Assembly: GCF_006064855.1 (NCBI RefSeq)
Contig: NZ_CP040753.1
Span: 2,522,001-2,586,000, forward strand
Source of the DNA: Sulfitobacter sp. BSw21498
Lineage (GTDB): Bacteria; Pseudomonadota; Alphaproteobacteria; Rhodobacterales; Rhodobacteraceae
Direction of reading: 5' to 3'
Length of the DNA: 64,000 nucleotides
Shown in pieces: positions 26,204-35,694 of the stretch (position 1 is its first letter; every line of letters begins with the position of its first letter). The notes beneath the pieces were generated by a model. The model saw only the letters and a list, made by a program, of their open reading frames with translations. It ran no database searches and was not told the DNA's origin. The translations under genes and the position numbers were made by a program.

Positions 26204-27353
26204 GGATTGGCGTCAGGGCGGCTTTGGCCTTTATATCCATTGGCCTTTTTGCGAGGCTAAATGCCCCTATTGTGACTTTAACAGCCATGTTAGTCGCTCA
26301 ATCGACCAACGCGCTTGGCGTGACGCCTACCTGTCAGAGCTGGAACGCGGCGCAGCCGAAACCCAAGGACGTGTGTTGAACGCTGTCTTTTTCGGCGGCG
26401 GCACCCCAAGCTTGATGGACCCTGATGTCGTCGCGGACGTCATTGCCGCAATTCGGCGCCTTTGGCCAACAGCTAATGACTTGGAAATTACCCTTGAAGC
26501 GAACCCAGGCTCGGTCGAGGCCGATCGCTTCGCCGCTTTCCGGCAGGCCGGCGTTAACCGTATTTCAATGGGGATACAGGCGCTGAACGACGCTGACCTG
26601 AAACGGCTTGGGCGAATTCATACCATCGCAGAGGGACTGGCAGCGTTCGATATTGCCCGCACGACATTCGACCGCGTCAGCTTTGATCTTATCTATGGGC
26701 GTCAGAACCAGACTTTGGTCGACTGGCAGGCCGAACTGAAGCAGGCCCTATCCCTCGCGATAGACCATATGTCTTTGTACCAATTGACGATCGAACAAGG
26801 CACCGCCTTTGGGGATCGCTACGCGATCGGAAAGCTTCGCGGGCTTCCCACTGATGACCTTGGTGCCGATATGTATGCAGCAACCCAAGACATCTGCGGA
26901 GAGATGGGCATGCCATCTTACGAGGTGTCTAACCATGCGCGCGACGGCGCCCAATCGCGGCATAACCTCATCTACTGGCGGTACGGCGATTATCTGGGTA
27001 TCGGCCCCGGGGCGCATGGACGTTTGACCCAGAATGGCAATCGATTTGCGACCGAATGCTTCAGCAACCCCAAACGCTGGCTCGACGCGAGCGTAAGTGG
27101 GGCCACAGAAAAACCCCGCGAGCTGCTTACCACCGAGGATCAAGGCAGCGAGTTTCTGATGATGGGCCTACGCTTGAAAGAAGGTGTTGACCTTCGACGT
27201 TACGAGGCCCTTGCGGGTGCCCCCCTATCGACAAAAAAAATCACCCAGATGCAGGACATCGGGATGATTTCTAGGGTTCATGATCAGCTTTTTGTCACTC
27301 ATCAGGGTTTTATGGTGCTGAACGCTATCCTGGCCGAGCTATTGTCCGATTAA
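26196..27353 (+). CDS. hemW: Radical SAM family heme chaperone HemW
   Basis: HemW proteins resemble oxygen-independent coproporphyrinogen oxidase HemN but act as heme chaperones. The 385-aa product has the radical SAM cluster motif CEAKCPYC near residue 19, FFGGGTPSLM, and a C-terminal HemN_C-like domain. A TTG at 26196 is the only plausible start before the conserved GGFGLYIHWPFC and overlaps rdgB by 8 bases. It is convergent with parB, with a four-base overlap of the two stops. Confidence 0.9.
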   Translation: MIEDWRQGGFGLYIHWPFCEAKCPYCDFNSHVSRSIDQRAWRDAYLSELERGAAETQGRVLNAVFFGGGTPSLMDPDVVADVIAAIRRLWPTANDLEITLEANPGSVEADRFAAFRQAGVNRISMGIQALNDADLKRLGRIHTIAEGLAAFDIARTTFDRVSFDLIYGRQNQTLVDWQAELKQALSLAIDHMSLYQLTIEQGTAFGDRYAIGKLRGLPTDDLGADMYAATQDICGEMGMPSYEVSNHARDGAQSRHNLIYWRYGDYLGIGPGAHGRLTQNGNRFATECFSNPKRWLDASVSGATEKPRELLTTEDQGSEFLMMGLRLKEGVDLRRYEALAGAPLSTKKITQMQDIGMISRVHDQLFVTHQGFMVLNAILAELLSD

Positions 27354-28237
27354 GAAGCCGACAAACGTTGGCAGAGTTCGTCCAGCTCATCCATGGTCGT
27401 GTAATGCAGTACCATCTGGCCGGCTTCCTGCCCGGGTTTATGGTTCAGCGTTACTTTCAGGCCCAGATTTGCCGAAAGATCGCCTTCAAGTGCGCGGGTG
27501 TCTGCATCTTTCTCACCAGTCGGTCGAGCGGTGCGTTTTTCGACACCACCATTTTCTGCCTGATGCTCTTTCTTAATCAAAGCTTCGGCAGCCCGTACCG
27601 ACAAGCCGCCCGCAATAATCTGCTTCGCAAGCTTTTCGGGGTTCTTTGACGGAACCAAGGTCCGTGCGTGTCCAGCCGTCAGATCACCCTGCCGCACCAA
27701 TTCCAGCACATTTTCAGGCAGGTTCAAAAGCCGCAGTAAGTTCGCAATATGGCTTCGGCTTTTACCCAGGGCTTCGGCCATTTTTTCCTGCGTGTGCCCG
27801 AAACGATCCATCAGCTGGCGATAACCTGCAGCCTCTTCGATCGAGTTGAGGTCCGCGCGCTGAATGTTTTCGATAATCGCGACTTCAAGAACTTCGACGT
27901 CGGTAAATTCGCGGACAATGATCGGCAGCTGGTGCAGCTGTGCCATTTGCGACGCACGCCAGCGCCGTTCGCCAGCAACGATCTCGAATGTTCCGTCCTC
28001 GCGGCGGCGCACGATCAGCGGCTGGATGACCCCTTTTTCTCGGATCGAATTCGCAAGATCCTCCAGATCCTGTGGATCAAATCGCTTGCGCGGCTGCTCC
28101 GGGTTAGGAGAGATTTTTTCGATCGGAACATACTGTTCCGCTGCGCCTTCTGATGCCACCGTTTGTGTCTCCGCTACATCTGCCATCAAAGCCGACAATC
28201 CGCGACCCAAACCGCGTCGTTTGTCTCTATCTGCCAT
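27350..28237 (-). CDS. parB: Chromosome partitioning protein ParB
   Basis: ParB binds parS sites near the origin, clamps on DNA using CTP and spreads to form the partition complex. The 295-aa protein has an N-terminal GRGLSALM box (ParA interaction) and the CTPase/nuclease-like domain with GERRWRAS (residues 89-96). ENIQRADLNSIEEA follows, then the helix-turn-helix KMAEALGKSRSHIANLLRLL and a C-terminal dimer domain. It lies downstream of parA in the same operon. Two parS sites are found 1.4 and 3.3 kb upstream. Confidence 0.96.
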   Translation of the reverse strand: MADRDKRRGLGRGLSALMADVAETQTVASEGAAEQYVPIEKISPNPEQPRKRFDPQDLEDLANSIREKGVIQPLIVRRREDGTFEIVAGERRWRASQMAQLHQLPIIVREFTDVEVLEVAIIENIQRADLNSIEEAAGYRQLMDRFGHTQEKMAEALGKSRSHIANLLRLLNLPENVLELVRQGDLTAGHARTLVPSKNPEKLAKQIIAGGLSVRAAEALIKKEHQAENGGVEKRTARPTGEKDADTRALEGDLSANLGLKVTLNHKPGQEAGQMVLHYTTMDELDELCQRLSAS

Positions 28238-28252
28238 TGCCTGACCCCTTAT

Positions 28253-29053
28253 TTATATAACACTATTCGCCAGTACTTCTCGCGCGAGATCGCGATACGC
28301 TTTGGCACCTTTCGATCCGCTATCATAGCTAAGAACCGGCATCGCGTAGCTTGGTGCCTCGCTGACGCGGACATTCCGCGGGATGACAGTCCTATATACC
28401 AGTTCACCCAGATTACTTCGGGCGTCCTGCTCAACCTGTTGAGACAGATTATTTCGCCGATCATACATCGTCAGAAGAACCCCCTCGATCCGAAGATCTT
28501 TATTACCGTTCTGCCTGACCTCTCGGATTGTAAGCATAAGCTGCGAGAGCCCTTCCAAAGCAAAAAATTCGCTTTGCAGTGGTACCAGAACTGAATGCGC
28601 CGCGATCATCGCGTTCACCGTCAACAGGTTCAACGATGGGGGGCAGTCGATTAAGATATAGTCAAAGGCGTAGCTGTCCATTTGGGTTTGACGCAATGCG
28701 TCATGCAATAGAAAGCTTCGCTTTTCGTTAGAGATTAGCTCCATATCAGCCGAACTGAGATCGACCGTCGCAGCAACGATGTGCAGGCCCTCCGTCTCGG
28801 TTGACATGATAACTTGGTCCAAATCGATATCTTCGAGCAGCAGTTCGTATGTTGTAAACTCTCTATCATCGAGTTCGATACCCAAACCCGTTGAGGCATT
28901 CCCCTGCGGATCAAGGTCGATCACGAGAACGCGTTGCTTTTGCTCGACCAATGCGGCAGCCAAATTTATCGTCGTTGTGGTTTTTCCCACGCCGCCTTTC
29001 TGGTTCGCAATCGCAATAATCTTTGGTCCTGATGGCCTAGACAGGTCAGACAT
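28253..29053 (-). CDS. parA: Chromosome partitioning ATPase ParA (Soj)
   Basis: ParA is the ATPase that moves ParB-bound origins. The 266-aa product carries the deviant Walker A KGGVGKTTT (residues 19-27) and the DLDPQGNASTGLG loop. Walker B follows as YILIDCPPSLNLLT. ATG 29053 overlaps the end of rsmG by 8 bases, and 15 bases separate the stop from parB. The chromosomal, not plasmid, type is supported by the rsmG-mnmG neighbours and the lack of an N-terminal helix-turn-helix extension. Confidence 0.96.
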   Translation of the reverse strand: MSDLSRPSGPKIIAIANQKGGVGKTTTTINLAAALVEQKQRVLVIDLDPQGNASTGLGIELDDREFTTYELLLEDIDLDQVIMSTETEGLHIVAATVDLSSADMELISNEKRSFLLHDALRQTQMDSYAFDYILIDCPPSLNLLTVNAMIAAHSVLVPLQSEFFALEGLSQLMLTIREVRQNGNKDLRIEGVLLTMYDRRNNLSQQVEQDARSNLGELVYRTVIPRNVRVSEAPSYAMPVLSYDSGSKGAKAYRDLAREVLANSVI

Positions 29054-29651
29054 GATTGATTTCCTTGATCTTAAGGATTGCAGCTGAGCTGTTCGTCTTA
29101 CTCGGGATCGCCTCGTAGGTATAGGCCCACTTCAAATTCGCCGCGTTATGCTCCTCGCGCCAATTTTCGCCTTTCGGAAAGAGCGCAGTTCCAGATGGGC
29201 TCATATGAAGGCTGGCAAATCCCATTAGGGTAGATAGATCAGCGAGAGCTCGTGCGCTAAGCACATCTGCCGATAGCGGCTCGATTGATTCAATCCGGTC
29301 ATTTACCACCGACGCGCTGAGACTAAGCTCACGAATTGCCGTGCGCAGAAATACACACTTTCTCTGATCGCTTTCAACCAGGGTGAACCTAGTATCCCGT
29401 CCCTCTTGCTCTGCCATCAAGGCTAGTATTATTGCCGGGAACCCGCCGCCACTTCCCAAATCGACCCAATGGGCTGCATTTGGTGCGTGGGCGTAAAGCT
29501 GAATAGAATCTTGAATATGCCGATCCCAAAGCTCGGACACGCTTGCCTTGGAAACGAGATTGATCTTCACTGTCCACTTTTCTACGAGACCCGCAAAATG
29601 CTGAAGCTTATTCAATGTTTCACGTGAAACATCGCCATCTGATCCGATCAT
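29046..29651 (-). CDS. rsmG: 16S rRNA (guanine-N7)-methyltransferase RsmG
   Basis: RsmG (GidB) methylates N7 of G527 in 16S rRNA. The 201-aa product has the SAM-binding DLGSGGGFPAI and the WDRHIQDSIQLY segment. A perfect parS site is embedded in its codons 7-12 (VSRETL), a placement well known for gidB genes. Its ATG overlaps the mnmG stop (TAATG). The tail overlaps parA by 8 bases. Confidence 0.93.
   Translation of the reverse strand: MIGSDGDVSRETLNKLQHFAGLVEKWTVKINLVSKASVSELWDRHIQDSIQLYAHAPNAAHWVDLGSGGGFPAIILALMAEQEGRDTRFTLVESDQRKCVFLRTAIRELSLSASVVNDRIESIEPLSADVLSARALADLSTLMGFASLHMSPSGTALFPKGENWREEHNAANLKWAYTYEAIPSKTNSSAAILKIKEINHV
29616..29631. promoter_or_regulatory. parS centromere site inside rsmG
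   Basis: The 16-base palindrome TGTTTCACGTGAAACA is a perfect match to the ParB binding consensus. It lies in the first codons of rsmG, 5.1 kb from the predicted origin. Confidence 0.95.
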
Positions 29652-32845: not shown

Positions 32846-34117
32846 TTAGCTGTTCATCGAGTCGAAGAAATCGGAATTTGTCTTCGTTTGCTTCAATTTC
32901 CCGATCAGGAATTCGATTGCATCCGTGGTACCCATTGGGTTCAGAATACGACGCAAGACAAATGTCTTTTGCAGATCGATTTTATCGACCAACAGATCTT
33001 CTTTCCGCGTGCCGGACTTGAGGATATCCATCGCAGGGAAGACGCGTTTGTCTGCGATCTTGCGATCCAGCACGATTTCGGAGTTACCGGTCCCTTTGAA
33101 TTCTTCAAAGATGACTTCGTCCATGCGGCTGCCGGTATCGATCAGTGCGGTCGCGATAATGGTCAGCGACCCGCCCTCTTCGATATTACGCGCGGCACCA
33201 AAGAAACGCTTCGGACGTTGCAGCGCGTTCGCATCAACACCACCGGTCAGAACCTTACCGGACGATGGTACCACAGTGTTAAAGGCGCGGCCCAAACGGG
33301 TGATCGAATCCAGCAAAATTACGACGTCGCGCTTGTGTTCAACCAGACGTTTTGCCTTTTCGATAACCATTTCGGACACGGCAACGTGACGGGTCGCAGG
33401 CTCGTCGAAGGTCGAGGAGACGACCTCCCCTTTGACACTACGCTGCATATCAGTGACTTCTTCGGGGCGTTCATCGATCAGCAAAACGATCAAATAGCAC
33501 TCAGGGTGGTTCTTTTCGATCGAATTGGCGATATTTTGCAGCAAAACGGTTTTACCAGTCCGTGGCGGTGCCACGATCAAACAGCGCTGGCCTTTACCGA
33601 TGGGCGATACCAGATCGATAATACGTGCCGAGCGGTCCTTGATCGTTGGATCATCGACTTCCATCGTGAGACGTTCGTCTGGGTAAAGCGGCGTCAGGTT
33701 TTCAAAAGCAACCTTGTGGCGGGCCTTTTCGGGCTCCTCAAAGTTGATCTTGGTCACTTCGGTCAGCGCAAAGTAGCGTTCGGTATCATCCGGCGCCTTG
33801 ATCAATCCTTCGATCGTGTCCCCCGTGCGCAGCGAGTGCTGGCGGATCATCTCGGGCGAAACGTAGATATCATCGGGGCCCGGCAGGTAGTTTGCCTCGG
33901 GCGAGCGGAGGAAACCGAAGCCGTCCTGCAACACTTCCAGCACACCATCGCCAGAGATTTCCCACCCTTCATCCGCGCGTTCGCGCAGAATCTGGAACAT
34001 CATCTCGCCTTTACGCATCGTGGATGCGTTTTCGATCTCAAGCTCTTCGGCCATCGCCAAAAGATTCTTGGGCGTCTGCGCCTTTAGATCGGCAAGGTTA
34101 AGTGTTTCGGTTGTCAT
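32846..34117 (-). CDS. rho: Transcription termination factor Rho
   Basis: Rho is the hexameric RNA helicase that ends transcription at untranslated RNA. The 423-aa protein has the N-terminal helical and cold-shock RNA-binding domains ([31 protein letters not shown]). Walker A APPRTGKT is at residues 183-190, and the secondary RNA-binding segment and [13 protein letters not shown] follow. ATG 34117, with AGGA upstream, gives the normal length; the in-frame extension to 34162 is rejected. A long open frame on the opposite strand (32888-34087) is a codon-bias shadow. Confidence 0.96.
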
Positions 34118-34240
34118 GGAAATATCCTGTTCCGGTCCCGGAATACGGGCGGGTCGTGTCATAAAAATGGGCAGATTAATACAAACCCCGGACGGGGTGC
34201 AGCAAACACATACTCAGATTGGCCGGTTTCGTCAATCAAC

Positions 34241-34690
34241 TTAGAATTTCACGACAACCGAGAACACTATGATGATCATCAGCAGCGTCGGTACTTCGTT
34301 CATGATCCGGTAACGTTTACCGCTTAGGCTGTTCTCACCGGCTGCAAAGGCCCGCACACGCCCGACAAGCCACCCGTGAAAGCCCGTCATCGCAAACACG
34401 CTGGCGCCCTTCGTCCACGGCCAGACAGCGGCCCAATCAACGATGCCGGGCGTCAGAACCAGCGCCAGCCCAAAGATCCACGTGCCGATCATCGCAGGAC
34501 GCATGATGACTGTGGCGAGCTTGAACTCCATCATTTTGAAAAGGTCATGGGTCGGGCCGCTTTGGCCTACCTGCTCCGTATGATGCACGAGAAGGCGCGG
34601 CAGATAGAACAGCGCTGCCATCCACGAAATGACCGAAATGATATGAAGCGATTTTACCCAAGGGTAGGCGATGGCAAGCAGGTCGGTCAT
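34241..34690 (-). CDS. hemJ: Protoporphyrinogen oxidase HemJ
   Basis: HemJ is the heme-dependent membrane enzyme that converts protoporphyrinogen IX to protoporphyrin IX in many alphaproteobacteria and cyanobacteria. The 149-aa product has about four transmembrane helices, the conserved N-terminal PWVKSLHIISVISWMAALFYLPRL (containing the key histidine) and a KGASVFAMTGFHGWLVGRVRAFA region. It is the last gene on the left side of the origin region. Loss of hemG and hemY is normal where hemJ is present, though I cannot see the rest of the genome. Confidence 0.9.
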   Translation of the reverse strand: MTDLLAIAYPWVKSLHIISVISWMAALFYLPRLLVHHTEQVGQSGPTHDLFKMMEFKLATVIMRPAMIGTWIFGLALVLTPGIVDWAAVWPWTKGASVFAMTGFHGWLVGRVRAFAAGENSLSGKRYRIMNEVPTLLMIIIVFSVVVKF

Positions 34691-35094
34691 GTCAGACTCC
34701 GGTTTGGGTCTTCTTACTAATATAAATAAGAAAAGAAGAAAGATGATGATGTAAGTAGGGAGACCATTTTCTGTGGATTACTGTTTTGTACCTCGATTTA
34801 TCCACCTGTGTACTTCGTAAATCCACCGACAGTGATAAGTCACGGGATGTCAAATTAAAATTAATATTTTCAGTGGGTTATTCGAAAAAAAATCGGGGGA
34901 TAACCTGTGTAGGTCTGTGGATAAGCTTGGGATTAACTCCGTTCAGGGGATTTCGGATTTATCCTTATGCCTGCCCGTATAAAACGTGAAATTCCGGCTG
35001 GAGGGCAAGGGTTTTCCCGACGGTTTTGCGGACCCTCGCCATTCGGGGGAAAAATCCCTAAGAACTTCCTAGCGTCGCACACAGGTTTATCCAC
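34691..35094. other. Predicted chromosomal replication origin (oriC)
   Basis: This 404-base gap is free of convincing genes and lies between hemJ and maf, which diverge from it. Two perfect DnaA boxes (TTATCCACA) lie at 34916-34924 (minus strand) and 35087-35095 (plus, abutting maf). Near matches lie at 34772-34780 (minus, TAATCCACA), 34798-34806 (TTATCCACC), 34895-34903 (minus, TTATCCCCG) and 34959-34967 (TTATCCTTA). AT-rich stretches at about 34711-34760 and 34850-34893 could be the unwinding element. The flanking order parAB-rsmG-mnmG-mnmE-rho-hemJ and maf-aroE-coaE-dnaQ is the known origin neighbourhood of alphaproteobacteria. Genes on both sides read away from it. Confidence 0.88.
34916..34924 (-). 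promoter_or_regulatory. DnaA box, perfect consensus
   Basis: TGTGGATAA on the plus strand is TTATCCACA on the minus strand, identical to the classical DnaA box. It sits centrally in the origin region. Confidence 0.85.
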
Positions 35095-35095
35095 A
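35087..35095 (+). promoter_or_regulatory. DnaA box abutting the maf start codon
   Basis: TTATCCACA is a perfect DnaA box whose last base is the A of the maf ATG. DnaA bound here could affect maf transcription or translation as well as initiation. Confidence 0.8.
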
Positions 35096-35694
35096 TGCCC
35101 CAACGTCTCATCCTCGCCTCCGGCTCGTCGATCCGGTCACAGTTGCTGCAACAGGCTTGCGTCCCTCACGAGGTGAGCGTCGCGCGAATTGATGAACAAA
35201 TGATTAAGATGGCCCTGCTGGCAGAGCAGGCGCCCCCACGCGACATCGCCGATACACTGGCAGAGATGAAAGCCCGCAAGGTCAGCGACAAGACCCCCGG
35301 TGCGTTGGTACTGGGCTGCGATCAGGTGCTCGACCATCGCGGTACGCTGCTGTCGAAACCCGCAACGCCCGACGAAGCGATTGCGCAGCTGAAATCCCTG
35401 CGGGGTGATCGCCATAGTTTGTTGTCAGCTGCGGTTATCGTCGAAGACGGCAAACCGATCTGGCGCCACGTGGGTCAGGTCCGGTTGCGGATGCGCGATG
35501 CTTCGGACGACTATATAGAAGACTACGTTGCGCGAAACTGGGACAGTATCCAGCACGCGGTCGGTGCCTATAAGCTGGAGGAAGAAGGCGTCAGGCTGTT
35601 CACCGGCATTGAAGGGGATTACTTTAATGTCCTAGGGTTACCTTTGCTTGAACTGTTGAATTATTTGACGCTACGGGGGGATCTATCCGCATGA
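35095..35694 (+). CDS. maf: Maf family nucleotide pyrophosphatase
   Basis: Maf proteins hydrolyse dTTP, UTP or modified nucleotides and are linked to septum inhibition in some bacteria. The 199-aa product has LILASGSSIRSQLLQQA at the start, the KARKVSDKTPGALVLGCDQVL segment and the RGDRHSLLSAAVI region. The ATG immediately follows a DnaA box. No Shine-Dalgarno is obvious. It overlaps aroE by four bases and heads a maf-aroE-coaE-dnaQ operon leaving the origin. Confidence 0.88.
   Translation: MPQRLILASGSSIRSQLLQQACVPHEVSVARIDEQMIKMALLAEQAPPRDIADTLAEMKARKVSDKTPGALVLGCDQVLDHRGTLLSKPATPDEAIAQLKSLRGDRHSLLSAAVIVEDGKPIWRHVGQVRLRMRDASDDYIEDYVARNWDSIQHAVGAYKLEEEGVRLFTGIEGDYFNVLGLPLLELLNYLTLRGDLSA

Follow-up and report, generated by a model that had tools for sequence, protein, structure and literature searches.

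The window analysed here is the whole 64,000-bp stretch of DNA at positions 2,522,001-2,586,000 of a 3,097,372-bp contig, in a genome of two contigs (3.24 Mb) whose closest named relatives, judged by Maf, belong to Sulfitobacter (S. litoralis 97%). Within it a gene-free spacer of 404 bp separates hemJ from maf; its bounds are exact, with the hemJ start at 34690 on the minus strand and the maf start at 35095 on the plus strand, and both genes point outward, as the original prediction of a gene-free region with diverging flanks had described. To the left of the spacer lie parB, parA, rsmG, mnmG, mnmE, rho and hemJ, and to the right maf, aroE, coaE, an RNase_T-type exonuclease and secB. RsmG, MnmG, MnmE, Rho, Maf, AroE, the dephospho-CoA kinase and the ParB domain score above the curated NCBIfam cut-offs; HemJ is slightly below its NCBIfam cut-off (127.7 vs 138.05 bits) and far over that of Pfam (186.2 vs 34.2), and ParA scores under the NCBIfam cut-offs. 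The rho-hemJ / maf-aroE-coaE neighbourhood with parAB close by, which had been claimed for this locus, is borne out by gene order and profile scores. The ten neighbour genes scanned are of core type, with no replicase gene beside the spacer, and the spacer gave no blastn match (E<=1e-5) in 72,556 plasmid records. Coordinates of all features are given in Table 1.

Table 1. Features of the hemJ-maf spacer and its surroundings (positions in the window)
Feature	Position	Strand	Evidence
Very probable oriC (whole hemJ-maf spacer)	34691..35094		Box cluster, skew flip, parS, conserved spacer
hemJ, left flank	34241..34690	-	ORF list and profile scores
maf, right flank	35095..35694	+	ORF list and profile scores
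rho	32846..34162	-	ORF list and profile score
parB and parA	27350..29053	-	ORF list and profile scores; ParA below NCBIfam cut-offs
parS, perfect TGTTTCACGTGAAACA, just inside rsmG	29616..29631		parS scan
parS, 1 mismatch to the 16-mer, perfect 14-bp core, spans the called mnmG start codon	31506..31521		parS scan
46-nt A/G-rich tract free of cytosine, a candidate unwinding element with proposed deviant DnaA-trios	34718..34763	+	Alignment, run lengths, stability
Conserved core GATGATG..GTAGGG	34742..34760	+	Alignment; 5'-TAG-3' at 34756-34758 is the first 3'-GAT-5' trio
13-bp gap, first trio to box 1	34759..34771		63-row comparison
DnaA box 1 (TAATCCACA, 1 mismatch), strongly conserved	34772..34780	-	Box scan, 68-row alignment
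DnaA box 2 (TTATCCACC, 1 mismatch)	34798..34806	+	Box scan, alignment
IHF-like site (TTTCAGTGGGTTA, 1 mismatch to consensus WATCARNNNNTTR)	34868..34880	+	68-row scan
Weak DnaA box, 2 mismatches	34895..34903	-	Box scan
DnaA box 3, perfect TTATCCACA, conserved only weakly	34916..34924	-	Box scan
Tandem weak boxes (TTTATCCTTATGCC; consensus about TTATCCTTATCC)	34958..34971	+	Alignment
Perfect DnaA box TTATCCACA fused to the maf start codon	35087..35095	+	Box scan, 68-row comparison

The DnaA boxes were graded by their mismatches to the reference TTATCCACA. Two perfect and four near boxes on both strands had been predicted and the scan recovered them all, two of the near boxes having one mismatch and two having two (those at 34895 on the minus strand and 34959 on the plus strand). 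Four boxes with at most one mismatch fall within 405 bp where 0.054 would be expected (Poisson 3e-7); no other 405-bp stretch holds four in the 924 kb sampled of 3.24 Mb, and two others in that sample reach three. Exact copies of TTATCCACA number 14 in the genome, two of them in the spacer. The clustering of DnaA boxes in a gene-free region, which was taken as one mark of an oriC, is present here. At the right end the perfect box reaches one base into the gene, its last A being the A of the maf ATG.

At the DNA level the 404 bp are matched in 16 of the genus's 23 other genomes and in none of the 16 compared from outside the genus. Of the 16 matched genomes, 15 have the spacer flanked by hemJ and maf; in the other (G005) it stands before maf at a contig end. 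For the comparison within the family, 80 Maf loci were taken, which gave 67 orthologous spacers and, with the window, 68 rows (effectively 60 sequences with 80% identity weighting), while 13 loci without a hemJ-maf spacer were dropped (L065, L095, L113, L121 and L122-L130). One locus labelled Nitrospira (L091) was retained for its roseobacter gene order; it lies on a Nitrospira-MAG-labelled contig with the roseobacter order rho-hemJ-maf-aroE and a roseobacter-type origin, and this contig is probably mis-binned. Conservation along the spacer is uneven. Mean information per column reaches 1.32 bits at box 1, 1.23 over the maf ribosome site and its box and 1.11 over 34711-34760. Box 2 and the IHF-like site each average 0.70, the tandem weak boxes 0.68 and box 3 0.44, and the filler between these elements has 0.19-0.37. 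The box at the maf start codon has at most one mismatch in 48 of 68 rows, against 0 of 68 for the control at the hemJ start.

Spacer length and filler were compared in the window and the 38 of the Sulfitobacter/Roseobacter-like loci L052-L090 that have the spacer. Mean identity to the window is 0.35 for the filler and 0.74 for the tract together with box 1, and despite this divergence of the filler the spacer measures 400-407 bp in 37 of 39; the rho-hemJ gap varies more in the same rows (SD 19 vs 5.4 bp, rho starts being taken from alignments). The distance from the tract to box 1 is identical in 48 of the 56 rows having both anchors, and in 39 of 41 rows the tandem box lies no more than 1 bp off its median distance from maf; such distances come only from rows with both anchors (27 to 63 of 68), and the anchors were sought near the aligned positions, which favours constant distances. 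Five of the 68 rows have no GGAT anchor at box 1, so that counts concerning box 1 refer to 63 rows. The conserved order is a C-free tract, a 13-bp gap, a DnaA box, the IHF-like site, the weak boxes and the box of the maf start codon.

Strand asymmetry was surveyed over 40 chromosome-wide stretches of 20 kb and the window. GC skew is positive in all 18 stretches of the maf-side arm and negative in 21 of 22 of the other arm (the exception is at 1.275 Mb), and the polarity of GGGNAGGG, which we take to be the KOPS motif of E. coli, tracks GC skew across the 40 stretches. The best two-point fit puts the origin at 2.575 Mb by GC skew (12.5-kb grid) and at 2.550-2.5625 Mb by GGGNAGGG, with the second switch at 0.84-0.90 Mb; the spacer is at 2.557 Mb. 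At the local scale the skew is about zero over the 29 kb to the right of the spacer within the window (-0.0036 and +0.0072), the cumulative skew stays low and flat as far as about +45 kb, reaching its minimum at +32 kb, and locally the GGGNAGGG switch fits best at +6.6 to +10.6 kb, preceded by three wrong-sense sites. Both are offset to the maf side, so that skew alone cannot single out the 404 bp. The predicted behaviour of GC skew is found at the scale of the chromosome, where 39 of 40 stretches have the expected sign; the local minimum is 32 kb to the maf side of the spacer, and the sign change is resolved only coarsely. In a single-contig genome of the same genus (G013), 12 of 13 distant stretches have the expected sign (the exception is at +187 kb), and the local switch is 7-18 kb from the orthologous spacer, also to the maf side (orientation from L146).

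These offsets in the two genomes would fit a true origin some 7-35 kb away in the direction of maf, with the spacer being a DnaA-regulated site. We consider this very improbable, since the local skew is flat and GGGNAGGG sites are few, the rest of the window has no comparable box cluster, parS and parAB are on the hemJ side, and the neighbourhood of the spacer resembles the origins of the class. Exact parS cores occur only twice in the genome, 3.2 and 5.1 kb from the conserved core, and G013 also has two at nearly equal distances. An origin at dnaA (+383 kb) or at hemE (+451 kb) was rejected because the sampled stretches there are of one polarity, and no box cluster was found in 3.5-4 kb around dnaA or around hemE. 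Taken together, skew, the box cluster, parS with parAB and the same spacer in relatives support the predicted location, and on this comparison of sequences the hemJ-maf spacer is very probably the oriC of the 3.1-Mb chromosome. Ori-Finder has been used to predict Rhodobacteraceae origins in 101 strains, with proximity to parAB among the criteria, according to the part of that study drawn on here (PMC6699656).

Some further sites were recorded during these scans. The parS core over the mnmG start codon and the perfect DnaA box over that of maf are two origin-region sites which each share a gene start. Three boxes also cluster at 160.3 kb and at 912.7 kb, and neither place was judged to be an origin. 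At the former (L004 10349-10419, genome C1 about 160,349) three one-mismatch boxes within 71 bp fall in the final part of an ORF resembling a 2-hydroxyacid dehydrogenase (ORF reading only). At the latter (L009 12721-12746, genome C1 about 912,721) one perfect box and two one-mismatch boxes, the latter two overlapping each other, lie within 26 bp, adjoining a helix-turn-helix-like ORF (ORF reading only) and near the fitted skew switch opposite the origin; this place is a possible DnaA-titration site or mobile replicon.

Two AT-rich stretches had been predicted in the spacer, and low-stability 40-mers do start in both, the least stable at 34708-34718 (-1.06 to -1.07 per step) and another at 34850 (-1.11). 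The first coincides in the alignment with an upper strand almost devoid of cytosine, which to the left of box 1 makes up 0-5% at each distance from 13 to 50 (63 rows). The C-free run has a median of 45 nt (30-59) over the 68 rows and is the longest C- or G-free run of the locus in 67 of them; in 924 kb of its own genome one C-free run exceeds the 46 nt of the tract (50 nt, L039). The trinucleotide 5'-TAG-3' stands exactly 13 bp off box 1 in 50 of 63 rows, and a second DnaA box (at most two mismatches; eight offsets scanned) was found in 13 of 63, in all 13 abutting box 1 and leaving four bases to TAG. The combined pattern of tract, TAG and box occurs in 21 of 120 family genomes including its own, one site in each, against 0 of 120 for the reversed control; in its strict form it is absent from the other 99, and all four loci examined lie between hemJ and maf. 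Outside the family the fixed pattern GATGATGN{2,6}TAGGN{8,16}GTGGAT gave three matches besides the own genome (142 class genomes), which were taken as chance; none of the three loci has matches to rho, hemJ, maf or aroE, and one (L175) lies between UvrD-like and PrmA-like genes (ORF reading only).

The most likely unwinding site is the tract beside the box at 34772, and we regard its service as the opening site as probable. The chief alternative is that the spacer is the oriC, yet opens in the central AT-rich stretch (about 34850-34890), the tract then serving another protein or helicase loading. The central stretch adjoins the IHF-like site, and in 21 of 68 rows the least stable 40-mer begins at 150-240 nt from hemJ; it begins within the hemJ-proximal 90 nt in 43 of 68, however, and the sequence of the central stretch is hardly conserved. 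An A/T run upstream is also usual for IHF sites, which counts against opening there, and we judge this alternative unlikely. The IHF-like site itself, scanned with WATCARNNNNTTR, which we take to be the IHF consensus, is present at one mismatch or fewer in 40 of 68 rows, while the median for the scanned offsets is 1 of 68. The same scan found no site in E. coli oriC at that threshold, although E. coli oriC has a known IHF site, so that the consensus used is crude.

The tract could also be a T-rich unwinding element of the E. coli type, with DnaA acting on the other strand. The general layout is similar in that E. coli oriC has its unwinding region to the left of an inverted first box (perfect there, with one mismatch here), a perfect box of opposite orientation at the right end, just beyond the annotated oriC, and a known IHF site between them, which our scan did not find; the end boxes are 315 bp apart here vs 180 bp there, and the flanking genes differ. 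On the bottom strand the motif TT[AG]T[AT] is commoner than in mononucleotide shuffles (1.87 vs 0.83). In E. coli oriC, however, two TTATT motifs to the left of the first box are on the other strand relative to the box, so that the T-rich strand is the opposite one, and on the strand equivalent to that of E. coli TT[AG]T[AT] has little enrichment here (0.49 vs 0.40). We judge an unwinding element of this type unlikely.

The origin of Caulobacter is flanked by hemE and COG1806/DUF299, and an IHF site and an AT-rich region have been published for it, as far as the text drawn on here goes (PMC1914354). The spacer agrees with origins of this Cori type in having a heme gene to the left with maf and aroE further right, and in an AT-rich region of about 40 bp, DnaA boxes and an IHF site on a 400-bp scale (same part of PMC1914354). 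It differs in its flanks, which are hemJ and maf in place of hemE and COG1806/DUF299, hemE being 451 kb away, and in its boxes, which are TTATCCACA here and TGATCCACA in the portion of the Caulobacter work consulted (PMC4285127). A gene for DUF299 (Kinase-PPPase, PF03618) was not found in the window genome; one is present in 56 of 86 class genomes. The IHF site of Cori-type origins has its counterpart here in the conserved IHF-like site, as scanned with the crude consensus. For CtrA (TTAA-N7-TTAA) there is one site with one mismatch; family spacers hold 0.87 such sites each vs 0.31 in mononucleotide shuffles, and class loci 0.21 vs 0.23. GANTC occurs once in the window, and at 1.03 per spacer vs 1.53 in shuffles.

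For the class, 86 genomes were searched, of which 56 had a DUF299 match, and the best-scoring 30 loci, each from another family, were taken; among these 30, the left side has hemE in 29 and the right side has maf in 25. After L200 (no hemE match) and L206 (short) were skipped, 28 hemE-DUF299 spacers were usable. In 22 of the 28 the C-free run exceeds the G-free run in length, in 21 it is the longest of the locus, and in 20 a box-like sequence lies within 30 nt of it. Across class and family loci, then, the spacer may have hemJ, hemE or neither of them on its left and either maf or DUF299 on its right, and such a tract stays in most. That the tract is a promoter or leader of hemJ, as its place about 25-75 bp upstream of that gene might suggest, rather than a part of the origin, is hardly credible given its presence in these spacers, where the left gene is hemE, and its persistence in two of the three family loci without a hemJ match beside the spacer (L113 and L121; it is reduced in L095). 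One class locus (L197) has the gene order hemJ, hemE, spacer, DUF299, maf, aroE, which may represent the arrangement that preceded the loss of hemE and DUF299 from the origin of Rhodobacteraceae.

The guanines of these C-free runs are periodic. In the 28 class runs the period of three has z values of 5.8, 4.6 and 3.1 at lags 3, 6 and 9, and the lag-3 controls gave 0.7 for other-strand runs of the same 500 nt (21 runs) and 1.1 for C-free runs of flanking genes (84 runs). Lag 3 is likewise the highest in the 68 family rows, whose sequences are related (z 12.9; lag 4 at 7.1). With the phase chosen to put G at position 3, the class runs contain 160 triplets ending in G, and these have A in the middle in 45 cases, G in 71 and T in 44. 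Among the papers listed by literature searches, no title or opening of an abstract mentions a C-free or guanine-periodic tract at alphaproteobacterial origins; an older comparison of Caulobacter origins (PubMed 19332823) may note one.

An array of this kind invites comparison with the DnaA-trios of the basal unwinding system (BUS) of B. subtilis oriC, in which a DnaA box is followed by a GC-rich gap and then the trios. In the part of PMC10721633 drawn on, B. subtilis DnaA captures trios on one strand, Arg202 and Glu228 holding the guanine and Asn187 the central adenine, and a central G or T slows opening. The portion of PMC8287927 used gives a gap of 10-13 bp and a box-proximal 3'-GAT-5' as the common state, reports trios to be absent from 15% of the origins searched, and suspects deviant trios without the central adenine. 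The spacer has the same order, strand polarity, 13-bp gap and first 3'-GAT-5' trio on the expected side and strand of the box (sense as in that portion of PMC8287927), and, in 13 of 63 rows, an abutting second box with a 4-bp gap left (PMC8287927, likewise in part). It differs in that no run of trios with central adenine is found at box 1, where the strand is guanine-periodic as 3'-GNW-5', and in a Tyr at the Asn187 position of DnaA. The published rule, which asks for three or more NAN in unbroken succession no further than 16 bp from a box, finds two trios at box 1 by direct reading and is satisfied there in 4 of 63 rows. Next to the weak box at 34895, a short run of A satisfies the lax form. 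When the published rule was applied to the whole spacer, one strand had three or more trios in 34 of 68 rows and the opposite strand in 37 of 68, vs 16% of shuffles; these counts are alike on both strands, hence not strand-specific, and were not taken as support.

The DnaA of the window genome has Lys, Glu and Tyr at the positions of B. subtilis Arg202, Glu228 and Asn187. Thirty DnaAs of other alphaproteobacterial families were sought and 29 were compared (L238 gave no frame): all 29 have Lys at the Arg202 position and all 29 have Glu at the Glu228 position, and the Asn187 position holds Tyr in 23, Phe in 3, His in 2 and Asn in 1. The residues that read guanine are thus retained and the one that reads adenine has changed, as would suit a guanine-periodic array whose centre is free. 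The sole genome with Asn (G207) has an origin (L196) without the tract and without a box at one mismatch or fewer, a single case. E. coli DnaA has Lys, Glu and Gln at 202, 228 and 187, so that these residue states are not specific to the C-free tract, and the relation of residue to tract is a correlation of two clade-wide states, not of independent changes. We propose, at slightly less than even odds, that the tract is a deviant trio array read as 3'-GNW-5', which would retain the first guanine and allow A, G or T in the centre.

Location, conservation, spacing, the period-three guanine and the DnaA residues come from the comparison of sequences, and from them we infer the steps of binding, bending and unwinding. 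DnaA would bind the conserved boxes, and IHF would bend the DNA that separates the tract-proximal boxes from the weak boxes and the maf-end box. Starting at box 1, a DnaA filament would extend over the 13-bp gap onto the C-free strand and capture its bases in threes, read as 3'-GNW-5', and the duplex would then open for helicase loading. More tentatively still, the array may be class-wide in the alphaproteobacteria, a 3'-GNW-5' series on a C-free strand beside the first box, read by a DnaA with an aromatic residue or His at the Asn187 position, the initiator and the origin code having changed together; the right-end box, which runs into the start codon of the adjacent gene (in Rhodobacteraceae, maf), could tie expression of that gene to DnaA occupancy.

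The origin itself is where it was expected, and what the comparison supplies is something testable. A candidate deviant motif is named at the place where the published rule mostly fails, the first box in the family tested, together with a matching residue of DnaA. If this is true, one opening mechanism would extend to the class of Caulobacter, with initiator and origin changing together.
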